Shown here one piece after another: positions 21,507 through 28,754 of a DNA stretch of 64,000 nucleotides (the first letter of the stretch is position 1; the number at the start of each line of letters is the position of its first letter). A model generated the notes under the pieces. That model saw only the letters and a list, made by a program, of their open reading frames with translations, ran no database searches and had not been told where the DNA came from. The translations under genes and the position numbers were made by a program. Origin of the DNA: Persicobacter psychrovividus (GTDB lineage: Bacteria; Bacteroidota; Bacteroidia; Cytophagales; Cyclobacteriaceae); assembly GCF_036492425.1 (NCBI RefSeq), contig NZ_AP025292.1, forward strand, positions 2,170,001 through 2,234,000, read 5' to 3'.

Positions 21507-22973
21507 CTATTGCTGTCGGAGCACATAACGACGGTGAAATCTATTGATATCCATTGAAACTCCCGAAATAATCGCACCAACATATAAAACTGTGGTGATC
21601 ATCACCCCCCGCAATGTAAATAATACCAGCCATTGCATTTGAGGAAGAAGCAAAACAAGAGCATAAGCGATGAAGGGAAAGGGCAAAAAGTACAAGGTGT
21701 TTTTCGTAAAGGGCTGAAAATGCCATTCATGTAATATTAACCTGAACTTGAGCAGGTTGTAAATCAACATCGAGAGGAAAGTCGCACAGGCCGCACCAGC
21801 AATTCCAAAAGCAGGGATCATCAGTAGGTTGGTCACTACCAGTAAAAAGGCCAGAACCACCGTAAAGTAAGTTACCCACTTATATTTTGGCGACTGAAGA
21901 ATAATCTCGCTATTGAGGCCAAAGATCATATCGACCACCTTGCTCAAGCCTACCCAAAAGACCACCATGGCGCCCGCCTTATAAATTTCGGAGTTGGGCA
22001 TCAGCTGATATACGACATCAATGTTGCACCAAATCCCCAGAAACAACCATGAGGCCACTACCGCCAGTATTCCCGTAGTTTGCTGATACAGCTTTTCAAT
22101 TCCCTCGAAATCATCCGATTTAAAAGCCTTTGAGATCAACGGTATGGCAATCTGGGAAATAGCCCTTCGGGGAATCTCTATCACCGTACCTATAAAAAAC
22201 GCTATCACATACACCCCGAGAGCATCCAGACCAATCATGCTGCTGATCATCAGGCTGTCCACCTTCGTAGAGACCAAAGCGCCTGCTGAAGACAAAATGA
22301 CAAACCACGCAAAATGCAACATGGGCTTTCGTTCCGATACTGGAGGCAAAACTTTCCCCTGCCAGTTCAGCCATCCTTTTAGCTGCGCATAAATGATCAG
22401 CAAAAGCACAGCCACCGCATAAGCACCTACCAGGCCATACATCAGTTCATGAAAACCAATCCACGACAACGCCACGCCGCCAATAAGCAAGCTCAGGGAA
22501 ATCCTCAGAAAAACTTCCTTGGTAAAAGCAGAAAAAACGATATTCAGATTTGCCCGATAAAACGACTCCATCATCAGCTGGTAGATCATCAAGATCATCA
22601 GTACAGGCACAAGGTAAAAGTAAGGCATCATCTCTGGATTAACGCCCATCAGAAGGCGCGCCCAGTAATCTGGAGCAAGCCAAAAGAAACAAAGGAACAA
22701 GCCAATCAGCGGCAAGGGATAGAGCAAAGCGAATTTGGGAATCGACATCGGCTGCTTCCTCAGCGTAGGAATAAACCGGTCAAGGACTGTCGGCAGGCCA
22801 AACTGCAGAAAGGACGCCAGTAACATGCCCAGATCCTGCAACAGACGCACCATGCCTATTTGGTCGGGAGCCAAAACCTTTGGCATGAAATACAAAAAAT
22901 TCAGGGCGCCAAAAATCACCCCGAAGTATGTCATCAAGGAGGCTCGAACCCCTTGCTTCACTACAATCCCCAT
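21507..22973 (-). CDS. Polysaccharide flippase (MATE/Wzx-type)
   Basis: 488 residues with about 14 hydrophobic helices and the N-terminal pattern GVRASLMTYFGVIFGALNFL then LAPDQIGMVRLLQDL, typical of the oligosaccharide flippase / polysaccharide biosynthesis family that moves lipid-linked sugars across the inner membrane. ALVSTKVDSLMISSMIGLDALGVY is the conserved mid-protein block. No glycosyltransferases are nearby, which is common for this orphan member in Bacteroidota. Two-box promoter at 22996-23025. Confidence 0.82.
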   Translation of the reverse strand: MGIVVKQGVRASLMTYFGVIFGALNFLYFMPKVLAPDQIGMVRLLQDLGMLLASFLQFGLPTVLDRFIPTLRKQPMSIPKFALLYPLPLIGLFLCFFWLAPDYWARLLMGVNPEMMPYFYLVPVLMILMIYQLMMESFYRANLNIVFSAFTKEVFLRISLSLLIGGVALSWIGFHELMYGLVGAYAVAVLLLIIYAQLKGWLNWQGKVLPPVSERKPMLHFAWFVILSSAGALVSTKVDSLMISSMIGLDALGVYVIAFFIGTVIEIPRRAISQIAIPLISKAFKSDDFEGIEKLYQQTTGILAVVASWLFLGIWCNIDVVYQLMPNSEIYKAGAMVVFWVGLSKVVDMIFGLNSEIILQSPKYKWVTYFTVVLAFLLVVTNLLMIPAFGIAGAACATFLSMLIYNLLKFRLILHEWHFQPFTKNTLYFLPFPFIAYALVLLLPQMQWLVLFTLRGVMITTVLYVGAIISGVSMDINRFHRRYVLRQQ

Positions 22974-23233: not shown

Positions 23234-23241
23234 TATTTTTG
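23234..23241 (+). promoter_or_regulatory. -7 box of the ilv operon leader transcript
   Basis: TATTTTTG, 37 bases before the leader ATG at 23279. A TTG at 23206-23208 is 25 nt away, longer than usual, so only the -7 box is claimed. Confidence 0.45.
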
Positions 23242-23278: not shown

Positions 23279-23440
23279 ATGGTACAAGCCAATCAACCAT
23301 ATTCCACTTCTAACTTGCCAATGCTTACTGGCGAAAACGTCCTGCGCATTCGTGAGCAGCTGTCGGTGGAGATTAGCGTCATTTTTTTGCTTCAAGTCAG
23401 TGTAATTTCAGCGATCGTCGTCATCTGCTCTTTGGTATAA
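23279..23440 (+). CDS. Branched-chain amino-acid leader peptide (53 aa) of the ilv operon
   Basis: ATG at 23279, TAA at 23438-23440. The first 29 residues are ordinary (MVQANQPYSTSNLPMLTGEN...). The last 24 residues contain 16 Val, Ile or Leu (VEISVIFLLQVSVISAIVVI then CSLV), encoded by mixed ATT, ATC, GTC, GTA, GTG, TTG and CTT codons. Three of the four branched-chain enzymes' products are thus sensed by the same ribosome. Its end overlaps one arm of the RNA structures described for 23396-23490, and ilvD begins 85 bases after the stop. This matches the logic of leader peptides such as IlvL, though the peptide is longer than the enterobacterial one. Confidence 0.72.
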   Translation: MVQANQPYSTSNLPMLTGENVLRIREQLSVEISVIFLLQVSVISAIVVICSLV

Positions 23441-23490
23441 GGCACTGACGAACAAGATGATCATTTCCGCTGAATAATTACCAAAGAGCA
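23396..23490 (+). promoter_or_regulatory. Alternative RNA hairpins in the ilv leader (putative attenuator)
   Basis: Fold A: GTCAGTG (23396-23402) pairs with CACTGAC (23443-23449), or TTCAGCG (23407-23413) pairs with CGCTGAA (23468-23474) with a nearby GTCATCT/AGATGAT helix. Fold B: TGCTCTTTGGTA (23426-23437) pairs perfectly with TACCAAAGAGCA (23479-23490). Arm one of fold B lies inside the loop of fold A and arm two outside it, so A and B exclude each other. The 5' arms all lie within the Ile/Val/Leu codon run, so ribosome position would choose between them. No U-run follows fold B, so a classical intrinsic terminator is not seen; Rho or translation control are possible. Confidence 0.6.
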
Positions 23491-23525
23491 CGCTTGATTC
23501 ACGCATTATTTCACAATTCTCCTTT

Positions 23526-25205
23526 ATGAATACATATAAAAAATATAGTCATCTGGTAACCACAGACGACAACCAGCCCGCCGCACAAGCCATGCACTAC
23601 GCCCTTGGCCTGACAGAAGAAGAGTTAGCTAAACCATTTATCGGAATTGCCTCCACAGGTTACGAGGGCAACCCTTGTAATATGCACCTGAATGATTTGG
23701 CCAAAGATGTTAAGAAAGGCACCAAAGATGCTGATCTTGTAGGATTGATTTTCAACACTATCGGTGTTTCCGATGGTATTTCAATGGGAACCCCTGGAAT
23801 GCGCTACTCTTTGCCTTCGAGGGATGTTATTGCCGACTCCATAGAAACAGTGGTAAACGCACAAGCCTATGACGGTGTCGTTACCGTAGTGGGTTGCGAT
23901 AAAAATATGCCTGGCGGACTGATGGGACTTATTCGCCTGAACCGCCCTTCGATCCTGATGTATGGCGGAACGATCGCCTCAGGGAAACACAATGGGGAGA
24001 AACTCGATATTGTTTCTGCCTTTGAAGCCTGGGGAAAGAAAGTCGCGGGAACCATTACCGAAGCGGAATACAAAGCCATTGTACAGAAAGCCTGCAACGG
24101 CGCTGGAGCATGTGGCGGAATGTACACCGCAAACACCATGTCATCGGCGATTGAAGCACTGGGAATGTCATTGCCTTTCAACGCCTCGATTCCTGCACAA
24201 AGCCCACTCAAAAAAGAGGAAGCTGTAAGAGCAGGTCAACTGATGCGCAACCTGATTGAAAAAGACATCAAGCCATCAGATATCCTGACAAAAAAATCTT
24301 TCGAGAACGCTTTCCGCCTGACCTTGATTATGGGCGGGTCCACCAATGCGGTTTTACACCTATTGGCATTAGCCGACACCGCGGATATCGCTTTCGACCT
24401 TGAGGATATGCAACGCCTTTCAGATGAAACGCCTTTCCTTGCAGACCTTAAACCTTCAGGAAAATACCTGATGGAAGACCTGCACGAGATCGGTGGTACG
24501 CCAGCGGTCATGCGTTTGCTACTCGACAAAGGTCTTTTGCATGGCGACTGTATGACCATCACAGGAAAAACCGTTGCCGAAAATCTTCAGGACGCACCAC
24601 GCCTTCCAGAAGATCAAAAAATAATCATGAACTGGGACGAACCGATCAAAGCCTCTGGTCACCTTCAAATCCTGAAGGGGAATTTGGCACCTGAAGGTTC
24701 GGTTGCAAAAATAACAGGTAAAGAGGGATTGTCCTTCTCGGGTACCGCCCGTGTTTTTGAGGGTGAATTCGATGCCAATGATGGCATTGCCAAAGGCACT
24801 GTCAAGAAAGGCGATGTGGTTGTCATTCGTTACGAAGGACCACAGGGAGGCCCTGGGATGCCTGAAATGTTAAAGCCAACTGCCGCCATTATGGGAGCTG
24901 GATTGGGTAATGATGTGGCCCTGATCACCGACGGGCGTTTCTCTGGAGGAACACACGGATTTGTCGTGGGCCACATCACACCAGAAGCGCAAGTCGGCGG
25001 ACCTATTGCCTTGATTGAGGAAGGCGACAAAATTACCATTGACGCAGAAAGTAACTTGCTCACGCTCCATATCTCTGACGAGGAGATGGCGCAAAGAAAG
25101 GAAAAATGGGTTGTGCCAGCATTGAAAAAGACGCGCGGAACTTTATATAAATATGCCAAAAATGTAGCCACAGCCTCTAAAGGTTGTGTTACCGATCGCT
25201 TTTAA
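23526..25205 (+). CDS. ilvD: Dihydroxy-acid dehydratase
   Basis: Dehydrates 2,3-dihydroxy-3-methylvalerate or -isovalerate in isoleucine and valine synthesis. 559 residues, full length. The three cluster cysteines are visible in [23 protein letters not shown] and [17 protein letters not shown]; the C-terminal block reads [15 protein letters not shown]. First enzyme gene of the operon; its leader carries the putative attenuator. ilvB follows after 12 bases. Confidence 0.97.
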
Positions 25206-25217
25206 ACTGATAGCATT

Positions 25218-26939
25218 ATGGAGACTGAAAATCAAACAACAACGCAGAGAATAAGCGGTGCTGATGCCTTTGTAAAAGCGTTGGTATATGAAGGTGTCGA
25301 TACCATTTTTGGTTACCCTGGCGGTGCAAATATGCCCATTTATGATGCCATTTACCGTGCGGAAGGCGAGGTAACCCACCTTATGGGAAGACACGAGCAG
25401 GGTGCTATTCATGCTGCTCAGGGCTATGCCCGCGCCTCAGGAAAATGCGGTGTGGTACTGGCCACTTCAGGCCCAGGCGCTACCAATATCATTACTGGTA
25501 TTGCTGATGCCATGATCGACTCCACCCCTTTGGTGTGTTTCACAGGTCAGGTGCCTTACAACCTTATCGGTACCGATGCCTTTCAGGAGTGCGACATTAC
25601 AGGAATTTCGATGCCCTGTACCAAATGGAACTATCAGATTAAAGATGCTGATGATATTGCCGAGATTATTGCCAAGGCTTTCTACATCGCACGATCTGGA
25701 CGACCAGGACCAGTACTGATCGACATCACGAAAAATGCGCAGTTTCAGGAAACAGATTTTAAATATCAGGCTTGCGAGATCATCAACAGCTATATCCCGA
25801 AACCACAACTTAATGAAAGCGCTGTGGCGGCAGCAATTGCCACCATACGCACTGCCGAGAAACCTTTCCTTATCTGGGGACAGGGCGTTATTCTCTCGGA
25901 AGCGGAACAGGCACTGAAGGACTTTTTGGACAAAACACAAATCCCTTCCGCCTCTACCCTTTTGGGCTTGTCGGCACTGCCTTCTGACCACCCCACCTAT
26001 ACTGGAATGGTCGGCATGCACGGTAACTATGCGCCCAACAAGCTCACCAACTCCTGCGATGTACTGATCGCTGTCGGGATGCGTTTTGATGACCGGGTAA
26101 CTGGCAACACCGCAACTTACGCGACACAGGCCAAGGTGATTCATATTGAGCTTGACCCTGCGGAGATTGATAAAAACATCCCTGCAACCATCCCTGTAAA
26201 TGCCGATGCCAAAGAGGCTCTTTCGGCCATCAGCGCAGGATTAGATGCACAGTCGAAAGACAAATACGCCAGCTGGTATGCTGAATTTGATGCCTTCTAT
26301 CAGGAGGAGAAAAATGAGGTAATTTTGCCTGAGGTAGCACCCGAAGGCGATCAGCTGACCATGGCGCAGGTGGTAGAAAATATTGCCAAAACCTTTCATC
26401 GTGACGCCATCATTGTATCTGATGTAGGGCAACACCAGATGAAGGCAGCAAGGTACAGCGCGTTCAACAAAAGCCGTTCACACATTACCTCTGGCGGCCT
26501 CGGAACAATGGGCTTCAGTCTGCCTGCCGCAATTGGCGCCAAAGTTGCCTGCCCTGAGCGTGAGGTGGTGGCCATTATTGGCGACGGTGGTTTCCAGATG
26601 ACCCTTCAGGAATTAGGGATGATTCTCGATTATAATATTGCCGTGAAAATTGTGGTACTCAACAACGAGTTCCTCGGCATGGTACGCCAATGGCAAGAGC
26701 TGTTCTTCGACAACCGTTACGCAAGTACGCCACTGAAGAACCCTGACTTTGTCAAGCTCGCAGAGTCCTACGGCATTACCTCCCTGAAAATTGACCATAA
26801 GTCGGCATTGAATGATGCCCTGGCTCAGCTTCGGGATCACCAGTCGGCCATGTTCCTGGAGTGCATGGTTGTCAAAGAAGAAAATGTATTTCCGATGATC
26901 GCCTCTGGCGCCACGGTAACAGATATAAGGTTAAAATAA
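25218..26939 (+). CDS. ilvB: Acetolactate synthase, large (catalytic) subunit
   Basis: ThDP- and FAD-dependent enzyme that condenses pyruvate with pyruvate or 2-oxobutyrate, first common step of valine and isoleucine synthesis. 573 residues: FGYPGGANMPIYDAIY with the following RHEQGAIHAAQGYARASG (catalytic Glu region), ATSGPGATNIITGIADA, the FAD-domain GMRFDDRVTG, and the ThDP motif start GDGGFQMTLQELGMIL with NNEFLGMVRQWQELFF. Complete. The regulatory subunit ilvN begins five bases after its stop. Confidence 0.97.
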   Translation: METENQTTTQRISGADAFVKALVYEGVDTIFGYPGGANMPIYDAIYRAEGEVTHLMGRHEQGAIHAAQGYARASGKCGVVLATSGPGATNIITGIADAMIDSTPLVCFTGQVPYNLIGTDAFQECDITGISMPCTKWNYQIKDADDIAEIIAKAFYIARSGRPGPVLIDITKNAQFQETDFKYQACEIINSYIPKPQLNESAVAAAIATIRTAEKPFLIWGQGVILSEAEQALKDFLDKTQIPSASTLLGLSALPSDHPTYTGMVGMHGNYAPNKLTNSCDVLIAVGMRFDDRVTGNTATYATQAKVIHIELDPAEIDKNIPATIPVNADAKEALSAISAGLDAQSKDKYASWYAEFDAFYQEEKNEVILPEVAPEGDQLTMAQVVENIAKTFHRDAIIVSDVGQHQMKAARYSAFNKSRSHITSGGLGTMGFSLPAAIGAKVACPEREVVAIIGDGGFQMTLQELGMILDYNIAVKIVVLNNEFLGMVRQWQELFFDNRYASTPLKNPDFVKLAESYGITSLKIDHKSALNDALAQLRDHQSAMFLECMVVKEENVFPMIASGATVTDIRLK

Positions 26940-26944
26940 AGTTC

Positions 26945-27502
26945 ATGACTATGGTTAAGCAAGTGCCACTCAACGAAGAGTTCACCATCTCGATATTCAC
27001 CGAAAACGCTATTGGTCTGCTCGCAAGGATAACCAATCAGTTCACCAAACGCCACATCAACATTGAAGCGTTGAATGTGTCGCAGTCGGAAGTAGAAGGT
27101 GTTCACCGCTTTACGATCGTTGTCAATACAACGCCTCGTCAGGTGGATCTGATCACCAAACAAATAGAAAAGCAAGTGGATGTTTACCGATGCTTCTACC
27201 ACAAAGCAGAAGAAACCATTCACCAGGAAATTGCCCTTTACAAATTGCCAACATCAGTATTGAAAAATGGCATTGAGGTCGAGGACATTATCCGACGGGA
27301 GGCAGCGCGTATTTTATCGATTGAAGAGCATTTCTTCGTGATCGAAAAAACAGGTTACCGCAAAGAAACCACCCGACTTTTTGAAGAACTAAAAAAGTTC
27401 AATGTTACTGAATTTGTCCGCTCGGGAAGGGTATCGATTACCAAACCGATGGACGAACTGAAGGAACACATTCAGGAAGTAAAGGCCAAAGCGGCCGTAT
27501 AA
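26945..27502 (+). CDS. ilvN: Acetolactate synthase, small (regulatory) subunit
   Basis: ATG at 26945 (MTMVKQVPLNEEFT; the Met at 26951 is equally possible) gives 185 residues and avoids overlap with ilvB. An ACT domain spans about 12-85: FTISIFTENAIGLLARITNQ then INIEALNVSQSEVEG, which binds valine for feedback control. The C-terminal domain activates the large subunit. Slightly longer than the minimal small subunit, as in many bacteria. Confidence 0.93.
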   Translation: MTMVKQVPLNEEFTISIFTENAIGLLARITNQFTKRHINIEALNVSQSEVEGVHRFTIVVNTTPRQVDLITKQIEKQVDVYRCFYHKAEETIHQEIALYKLPTSVLKNGIEVEDIIRREAARILSIEEHFFVIEKTGYRKETTRLFEELKKFNVTEFVRSGRVSITKPMDELKEHIQEVKAKAAV

Positions 27503-27622
27503 CGACACCTCTTTGATCTCGGGAAACATTCCCCGGTGATCATTTAAAATGTACGGGCATTGGAGACAGTGCCCCTACTCCATAAAATAAATCTAATATC
27601 AAACGAAATAAAAAATAACATT

Positions 27623-28681
27623 ATGGCAATCATCAATTTTGGCGGCGTAGAAGAAAATGTAGTAACACGTGAAGAGTTTCCTTTGGAAAAAGCGCGTGAG
27701 GTCATGTCATCAGAAACCATCGCTGTGATCGGTTACGGTGTACAGGGTCCTGGTCAGTCTTTAAACCTGAAAGATAATGGTTTCAATGTGATCATTGGAC
27801 AGCGTCAGGGTTCAGCATCATGGGACAAAGCCGTTGCTGATGGCTGGGTACCAGGAGAGACACTTTTCTCTATCGAAGAAGCGCTTGAGCGCGGAACAAT
27901 CATCCAGTATTTATTGTCTGATGCAGGTCAGATTGCCGTTTGGCCAACTGTAAAAGCTGCTTTGAAACCAGGTAAAACACTTTACTTCTCACACGGTTTT
28001 GGTGCTACTTATGCAGAGCGTACAGGTATTGTTCCTCCTAAAGATGTAGATGTAATTTTGGTCGCTCCAAAAGGTTCTGGTACTTCATTGCGTCGTATGT
28101 TCTTGGAAGGACGTGGATTGAACTCTTCATTTGCAATCTTCCAGGATGCTACAGGTAAAGCACGTGAAAAAGTGGTTGCTTTAGGTATTGGTGTAGGTTC
28201 AGGATATTTGTTCGAAACTACTTTCAAAAAAGAAGTTTACTCTGATTTAACAGGTGAGCGTGGTACTTTGATGGGTGCTATTCAGGGAATTTTTGCCGCT
28301 CAGTACGATGTATTGCGTAAGGCAGGACACAGCCCTTCTGAAGCATTCAACGAGACGGTAGAAGAATTGACACAATCATTGATGCCATTGGTTGCTGAAA
28401 ACGGTATGGACTGGATGTACGCAAACTGTTCAACAACCGCTCAGCGTGGTGCTTTGGATTGGTGGAAGAAATTCCGTGATGCAACACAGCCTGTATTCCA
28501 GGAATTGTATGATGAAGTTGCTTGTGGTAATGAAGCACAGCGTTCAATCGATGCAAACTCGAAAGACGATTACCGTGTAGGTTTGGAAGCAGAATTGAAA
28601 GAGCTTCAGGATTCTGAAATGTGGCGTGCAGGTGCTGCTGTTCGTAAATTGCGTCCAGAGTCTGAAAAAGTAGAGGCATAA
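27623..28681 (+). CDS. ilvC: Ketol-acid reductoisomerase
   Basis: ATG at 27623 (MAIINFGGVEENVVTREEFP) gives 352 residues; an in-frame upstream start would add an unconserved stretch. NADPH-dependent isomerisation and reduction of acetolactate. The Rossmann motif is AVIGYGVQGPGQSLNLKDNG, followed by IGQRQGSASW at the phosphate-binding loop, and the catalytic region contains LTGERGTLMGAIQGIF and VEELTQSLMPLVAENGM. Codon use differs from ilvD/B/N: almost all Gly, Ala, Val and Arg codons end in T or A, typical of a highly expressed or separately acquired gene. A 120-base gap after ilvN contains a small hairpin GGGCATT/AGTGCCC. Confidence 0.96.
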   Translation: MAIINFGGVEENVVTREEFPLEKAREVMSSETIAVIGYGVQGPGQSLNLKDNGFNVIIGQRQGSASWDKAVADGWVPGETLFSIEEALERGTIIQYLLSDAGQIAVWPTVKAALKPGKTLYFSHGFGATYAERTGIVPPKDVDVILVAPKGSGTSLRRMFLEGRGLNSSFAIFQDATGKAREKVVALGIGVGSGYLFETTFKKEVYSDLTGERGTLMGAIQGIFAAQYDVLRKAGHSPSEAFNETVEELTQSLMPLVAENGMDWMYANCSTTAQRGALDWWKKFRDATQPVFQELYDEVACGNEAQRSIDANSKDDYRVGLEAELKELQDSEMWRAGAAVRKLRPESEKVEA

Positions 28682-28722: not shown

Positions 28723-28754
28723 AGCCACCTACTTTAAGGTGGCTTTTCTTTTTT
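28723..28754 (+). terminator. Terminator of the ilv operon
   Basis: Stem AGCCACCT (28723-28730) / AGGTGGCT (28737-28744), 6-nt loop, followed by a T-rich tail with one C, to 28754. Confidence 0.85.

Follow-up and report, generated by a model that had tools for sequence, protein, structure and literature searches.

The textbook switch known as leader-peptide attenuation depends on an intrinsic terminator. The ilv operon of Persicobacter psychrovividus, examined here within a 64,000-nucleotide stretch of the genome (the window), raises the question of what kind of switch a leader peptide could form where no such terminator is visible, since a preliminary description of this DNA had proposed an attenuator with an Ile/Val/Leu-rich leader peptide before ilvD and, seeing no U-run, had left its mechanism in doubt. 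The operon and the features discussed below are collected in Table 1; the ilvN ORF as listed begins at a GTG within ilvB, and its true start probably lies further in. Because the gene upstream of the leader is divergent, the operon promoter is expected within the intervening 305 nt. An octamer matching TAnnTTTG, which we take to be a −7-like promoter element from this consensus, has a counterpart at the aligned place in a sister species of the same genus (G001); no −33 TTG was found at the usual spacing from it. Given this element, transcription would start about 30 nt upstream of the leader ATG. Across 262 bases at the leader region, another assembly of the species is identical. Of 12 kb from the second contig of the sister, 64% matches a plasmid of Persicobacter sp. 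JZB09 at 95.8%; two stretches of the P. psychrovividus genome gave no match of this sort.

Table 1. Features at the P. psychrovividus ilv leader and operon (positions in the window) and upstream loci of one kind of his leader
Feature	Position	Strand	Remarks
Divergent gene with polysaccharide-biosynthesis domain	21507-22973	−	Pfam; upstream of leader
Putative −7-like promoter element	23234..23241	+	TATTTTTG (TAnnTTTG); TACTTTTG at the aligned place in the sister (pairwise alignment)
Leader ORF	23279..23440	+	53 codons plus TAA; peptide MVQANQPYSTSNLPMLTGENVLRIREQLSVEISVIFLLQVSVISAIVVICSLV; A at −3
Alternative fold	23407..23474	+	23407-23412/23469-23474, 23413-23419/23456-23462 and 23420-23423/23446-23449; −20.0 kcal/mol
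BCAA run A-I-V-V-I (A-V-V-V-I in the sister)	23411..23425	+	Conserved, likely stalling codons (codon comparison with the sister); directly 5′ of the stem
Stem, 5′ arm	23426..23437	+	TGCTCTTTGGTA; codons C-S-L-V; stop codon next (23438-23440)
Stem, 3′ arm	23479..23490	+	TACCAAAGAGCA; ends 35 nt before the ilvD ATG
ilvD, dihydroxy-acid dehydratase	23526..25205	+	Pfam PF00920, PF24877
ilvB, acetolactate synthase large subunit	25218..26939	+	Pfam TPP_enzyme N, M, C; name inferred from the operon
ilvN, acetolactate synthase small subunit	26861..27502	+	Pfam PF10369, PF22629
ilvC, ketol-acid reductoisomerase	27560..28681	+	Pfam PF01450, PF07991
Ordinary terminator at operon end	28724..28743	+	Hairpin with U-run
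Stop-in-loop his leaders (15)	L180, L188, L190, L192, L193, L194, L198, L199, L202, L214, L225, L236, L240, L249, L253		Upstream of hisG

The 53-codon ORF announced in the preliminary description is present before the operon, short and rich in codons for the end products of the pathway, with a spacer of 85 nt between its stop codon and ilvD. Ile, Val and Leu make up 15 of its last 24 residues; the earlier count of 16 requires a stretch of 26 residues, but the density itself is far above chance (binomial P = 3.7e-5 against a background of 22.9% in the window). None of the 13,463 24-aa windows in the 28 large ORFs reached 15 such residues and, among the 577 ATG ORFs of 24–70 aa in the window, 15 in 24 occurred only in the leader ORF, from two of its ATGs. 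GTC accounts for five of the nine Val codons of the leader, and CTC for none of its seven Leu codons. The ORF had no Pfam match, and the leader region had no covariance-model match in Rfam at the gathering threshold or at E up to 1, T-box and other Rfam leaders included; across 13 loci comprising his, trp and ilv leaders, Rfam matched only a tRNA.

The end of the leader would fold in two ways. Its last four codons form one arm of a perfect 12-bp stem, as had been noticed before, and no stem of this length arose when the region was dinucleotide-shuffled 300 times or in any of 2000 shuffled spacers. The whole leader was no more stable than its shuffles (z 0.55 and −0.77). When growing prefixes of the RNA were folded, the alternative fold appeared first (−20.0 kcal/mol) and was then displaced by the stem (−21.7 to −25.0 kcal/mol), so that the two mutually exclusive foldings of the preliminary description are borne out by prediction in P. 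psychrovividus. A third element was considered and set aside: a candidate conserved region 1 (CTTGCCAA, near codon 13) could pair with the 5′ arm in P. psychrovividus and in the sister alike, but a shared word of eight letters arose in 40 of 500 shuffles.

Conservation was assessed across two species only, P. psychrovividus and its sister, whose IlvD proteins are 89% identical. The sister leader likewise has 53 codons. Its N-terminal half is poorly conserved relative to that of P. psychrovividus, and at the C-terminal end 8 of 14 residues are identical (AIVVICSLV here, AVVVIRSLA in the sister); all four Val codons of the sister leader are GTC. The stem recurs there as CGCTCTTTGGCA/TGCCAAAGAGAT, with 10 bp, the two outermost pairs being lost, and the whole-leader alignment reveals one compensatory pair, U-A to C-G, between the two species. 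None of 2000 shuffled sister spacers yielded the 10-bp stem, and a 10-bp stem anywhere arose in 3 of 300 whole-region shuffles. The distance from the core of the 3′ arm (CCAAAGAG) to the ATG is also kept, at 37 nt here and 38 nt in the sister. Since the 8-mer common to both spacers is by itself not significant (reached in 69 of 500), the case for the stem rests on complementarity; when the spacers are aligned alone the 3′ arms do not line up, whereas the whole-leader alignment does bring them together. Thus, in the alignment of related leaders that the preliminary description had called for, here of two species, the ORF, the C-terminal run of branched-chain amino acids (BCAA) and the stem with its compensatory pair are conserved, but the second fold is not: in the sister the fold that competes with the stem reaches −10.2 to −11.7 kcal/mol, against −22.8 for the stem.

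No terminator-like site was found on the operon strand between positions 22500 and 24500, the four sites found all being on the opposite strand, and the sister leader likewise gave none on the operon strand, which bears out the missing U-run and supports the doubt that it had cast on the mechanism. From the stem into ilvD the RNA is predicted to be nearly unfolded in the two species (−2.0 and −1.4 kcal/mol). Moreover, 279 and 287 of 300 shuffles paired with the 3′ arm at least as well as the actual downstream RNA, and because this arm pairs so poorly downstream, no region 4 was found in either species. The locus therefore departs from a classical attenuator on two counts: no intrinsic terminator with a U-run was detected before the first gene and, in place of exclusive terminator and antiterminator folds, there is an unconserved second fold and a stem, neither of them terminator-like. 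The spacer has a modest excess of C over G (21 C and 13 G here; 22 C and 11 G in the sister). Ordinary terminators do occur in this organism, at the end of the ilv operon and in the trp leader, where AAAGGCTTGCTGTTCATCCGAACGGTAAGCCTTT and a U-run come after MKTTTGHIHAWYWHLYITKMNSPVMP; the sister has a counterpart. Upstream of trpE in the genus (L169 and L168), the Trp leader has its Trp codons (HAWYWH, HTAWWWH) together with a terminator bearing a U-run, a canonical layout. The regions upstream of leuA showed no conserved leader, and no Phe-rich leader was seen among the ATG ORFs in the 350 nt upstream of pheA of the genus.

With the leader peptide as query, tblastn at E 0.01 matched two of 295 family genomes, both of P. 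psychrovividus, and nothing beyond the species; the sister leader, too, escaped it. Upstream DNA of ilvD was compared instead at 148 distinct loci, 70 from the genus, family and order (drawn from 79 genomes with a match) and 78 from named GTDB genomes (drawn from 80 loci; L092 and L097 were left out as duplicate or too short), the latter mostly Flavobacteriia and other Bacteroidota with some bins bearing foreign names. The pattern sought was a BCAA-rich ORF and, 20–140 nt behind it, a hairpin with a U-run, called with a custom script. It occurred at 53 of the 148 loci on the forward strand (28/70 and 25/78) and, as a gauge of the noise of the script, at 9 of 148 (3 and 6) on the reverse strand, loci being counted without correction for relatedness. 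Limiting the ORF to ATG starts and at most 40 aa left 49 forward and 3 reverse matches. BCAA-rich ORFs alone were uninformative (82 forward and 75 reverse, of 148). As ilvE or another gene lies directly upstream of ilvD at many of the 148 loci, the fraction of 53/148 is probably low for ilvD promoters. Examples of leaders with a terminator are MPILVVITIIVIIVIVQWRG (L045), MSLLVSILSIVVVLIVVPTPAYG (L030) and MNSFTNIILISIIIITVPIW (L003). The 52 leaders with a terminator that were examined further are typically short (median 20 aa), and the segment around their stop codon pairs with the 5′ arm of the terminator, as expected of a classical antiterminator (mean longest run 8.0, against 5.3 when shuffled; p ≤ 0.05 for 27 of the 52 leaders). 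By position, the Persicobacter stem thus roughly matches the place that the antiterminator would take in these relatives. Judged by this pattern, attenuators of the classical form are widespread upstream of ilvD in the phylum; the Persicobacter version is related to them by position and content. Of the 82 BCAA-rich ORFs on the forward strand, the other 29, both Persicobacter leaders among them, had no terminator call; most of these look like chance, as the reverse strand carried such an ORF at 75 of the 148 loci, and other terminator-less ilvD leaders may exist.

Codon usage links the leaders further. Of the 167 Val codons in the 49 leaders, 79 are GTC, compared to 143 of 1328 in the ilvD genes that follow them (the loci are related, and no P value should be read at face value) and 127 of 909 in the large ORFs of the window; for Leu, CTC makes up 23 of 95 codons in the leaders and 109 of 1609 in their ilvD genes. 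This strong preference for GTC and CTC in the 49 leaders suggests that particular isoacceptor tRNAs are sensed. Together, the sister leader, the phylum-wide pattern of ORF and terminator and the preference for GTC strongly support the earlier proposal of a BCAA leader peptide before ilvD. At two ilvD loci (L051 and L057), two successive U-run hairpins lie between the BCAA leader and ilvD, where tandem attenuation is possible.

A parallel is found upstream of hisG. In the genus, the his leader too is long (43 and 38 aa), and the hairpin at its end is kept with a compensatory pair, as judged by eye from the alignment; in P. psychrovividus (L155) this hairpin (−10.6 kcal/mol, tail TTAATTTA) is a weak terminator candidate, and in the sister no terminator was called. 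Upstream regions were fetched for 72 of 84 genomes with HisG and 70 were examined, two being dropped for lack of a usable start. A His-rich leader was present in 48 of the 70, with a terminator call, some of them weak, in 19 of these 48. The last leader codons pair over at least 6 bp with the bases just past the stop in 17 of the 48 his leaders, compared to 2 of the 52 ilv leaders with a terminator, and 15 of these 17 end in HHSS, HHSL or HHLS (in L202 with one codon more), with the stop codon in the loop. Stem variants keep their pairing (ATTCCTCC/GGAGGAAT, ATCTCTC/GAGAGAT, ATTCCCT/GGGGAAT). Terminators were called in 1 of these 15 leaders (L194, weak and inside the leader) versus 18 of the other 33, that of P. 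psychrovividus included (Fisher P 0.0016, with loci uncorrected for relatedness). Among the relatives sampled, his leaders thus come in two kinds. Several of the stop-in-loop loci share further blocks before hisG (ACATATCGCCC, GGCTGTTGGTAT and AAACGTATATTGCAT). A small ORF between the his leader and hisG was also considered and discarded, being open, by eye, in one locus and not in others.

How the ilv leader might act was approached by setting a ribosome at chosen codons, masking all RNA behind it and predicting the folding of the remainder. In P. psychrovividus, the predicted probability of the stem is 0.54 with no ribosome, 0.01–0.13 for stalls at codons 1–31, 0.37 at codon 37, and 0.91, 0.99 and 1.00 at codons 34, 40 and 43 respectively; a ribosome at codon 46 or later masks the 5′ arm. 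In the sister, the stem is predicted at 0.96–1.00 for ribosome positions up to codon 43. We propose, giving it an even chance, that the leader senses ribosome progress and tunes ilvD-ilvB-ilvN-ilvC to charged Val, Ile and Leu tRNA, with the stem as the on state and Rho as the most likely agent of the off step. The 53-codon leader would be translated while RNA polymerase moves on. With BCAA plentiful, the ribosome would reach the stop codon and cover the last four codons, blocking the stem, and the spacer would stay open, so that transcription would end, most likely via Rho. With BCAA scarce, a ribosome stalled on the upstream BCAA codons would let the antiterminator-like stem form and the operon be transcribed. 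The on state is assigned to the stem because its position resembles that of the antiterminator in relatives, and Rho would be the likeliest agent because the open spacer, richer in C than in G, is one that the stem would partly fold away. Counting against this polarity, early stalls (codons 1–31) disfavour the stem in P. psychrovividus. The DNA itself presents a leader, its conservation, a stem with a compensatory change and no detectable intrinsic terminator; from these we infer the stalling, the on state, control of transcription rather than translation and the part of Rho.

The opposite polarity is an unlikely but serious rival, in which the stem would be the off structure, as a pause or in connection with Rho: a ribosome stalled at AVVVI would mask the 5′ arm and turn the operon on, and quick passage would let the stem form. 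AVVVI, the best conserved part of the peptide, abuts the 5′ arm, stalls from codon 46 on mask that arm, and the terminator-less his leaders of relatives share the layout of His codons followed by a stem of the last codons; yet the stem is placed like the antiterminator of relatives, and severe starvation would presumably stop ribosomes at earlier BCAA codons, leaving the arm free. Rather improbable is a translational switch in which the stem governs access of ribosomes to the ilvD start. Leader peptides of antibiotic-induced genes work by translational attenuation, and a switch of this type would agree with the failure to find a terminator and with the conserved distance from arm to ATG (37 and 38 nt). 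In Flavobacterium johnsoniae, moreover, initiation is tuned by mRNA structure, according to the available part of one report (PMC6847099). Against it, the 20 nt before ilvD (−20 to −1) are predicted to be unpaired at 0.61–0.80 here and 0.53–0.66 in the sister over all ribosome positions, so that in neither species would the start be sequestered in one of the folds and it would be about as open with the stem as without it; nor did we find a good pairing partner near the ATG or conserved sequence just before it. The ribosome-blocked start that the preliminary description had listed among possible mechanisms thus gains no support from the predicted folding.

A degenerate terminator missed by the scans, which would make this an ordinary intrinsic attenuator, would suit the prevalence of U-run terminators among relatives (53/148), but we hold it very improbable: none was called on the operon strand at the leader of either species, the RNA past the stem is predicted to be open in both, and the operon end and the trp leader show that the organism has normal terminators. 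Nor do we give much credit to the ORF as a small functional protein or a chance ORF. Its hydrophobic tail does, by eye, suit a membrane helix, but the last 24 residues carry four charges in the sister versus one in P. psychrovividus, the N-terminal half is poorly conserved and Pfam gave no match; and the BCAA density and the stem exceed what chance would produce. Returning to the proposed ribosome-sensing leader, we tentatively suggest, at slightly less than an even chance, that it belongs to a class of amino-acid leader switches in Bacteroidota that dispense with an intrinsic terminator, where the last codons before the stop would serve as one arm of a stem and Rho or another factor would set the outcome. 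The Persicobacter ilvD leader would be the BCAA form of this class; its commoner form would be the his leaders that close with ..VHHFHHSS-stop and hold the stop codon in the loop of the hairpin.

Among known systems, the ilvGMEDA and leu operons of Escherichia coli have leader-peptide attenuators with a 3:4 terminator. The Persicobacter leader resembles them in its BCAA-rich peptide before BCAA genes, in the stem overlapping the leader end and in the exclusive folds, but is longer, and no 3:4 terminator or U-run was found. With the ilvD leaders of other Bacteroidota (L003, L026, L030, L045 and others) it shares the BCAA leader, the GTC preference and a leader-end segment whose partner starts mostly 20–45 nt past the stop (38 nt in P. 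psychrovividus and 47 nt in the sister), and it differs from them in having 53 codons and no detected terminator, compared to a median of 20 aa and a U-run terminator. By content, conservation and relatives, the Persicobacter ilvD leader thus reads as a leader-peptide attenuator, and it fails the classical, terminator-based test.

In Staphylococcus aureus, a leader peptide with Ile and Leu codons also precedes ilvD but, unlike in Persicobacter, a poly-U terminator lies 52 nt past the leader stop, as given in the accessible part of that report (PMC5794164). Within the same phylum, the Flavobacterium psychrophilum study, in the portion available, describes 'strong clues' that amino-acid operons are preceded by leader-peptide attenuators, as well as conserved structured hisG and pheA leaders without an Rfam match, and ilv does not appear in its main text (PMC9723704); for Bacteroides, short ORFs reminiscent of leader peptides are mentioned in the available text (PMC7366714). 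As far as the accessible text goes, the E. coli topAI uORF offers a likeness in that translation of the leader influences premature Rho termination but, unlike the Persicobacter leader, it is an antibiotic sensor and acts directly on translation (PMC12121999). In the available parts of the open-access literature, nothing was found among the matches listed on ilvD leaders in Bacteroidota or on terminator-less amino-acid leaders there. Leader-peptide attenuation is therefore known in the phylum, and a terminator-less form was not found described in the open-access matches listed.

Within one genus, then, the trp leader keeps its terminator, none was found for the ilv leader, and that of the his leader is weak at best. 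This arrangement lets control of an operon by a stalled ribosome without an intrinsic terminator be tested in a phylum, Bacteroidota, that naturally lacks Shine-Dalgarno sequences. For annotation, searches relying on U-run terminators would miss leader switches of this kind. Two minor observations fall outside these leaders. Upstream of a PF00800 gene in another genome (L206, G045), a Phe/Tyr-rich leader (MKQMMINNASFYFYYYFFECRKGLQE) is followed, by eye, by a hairpin with a U-run. In addition, P. psychrovividus IlvD is 72–74% identical (best segment) to proteins of Flavobacteriaceae such as Tenacibaculum and Meridianimaribacter and 59–70% identical to those of the family members listed outside its own genus; being closer to Flavobacteriaceae than to its own family, it may reflect transfer of the operon.
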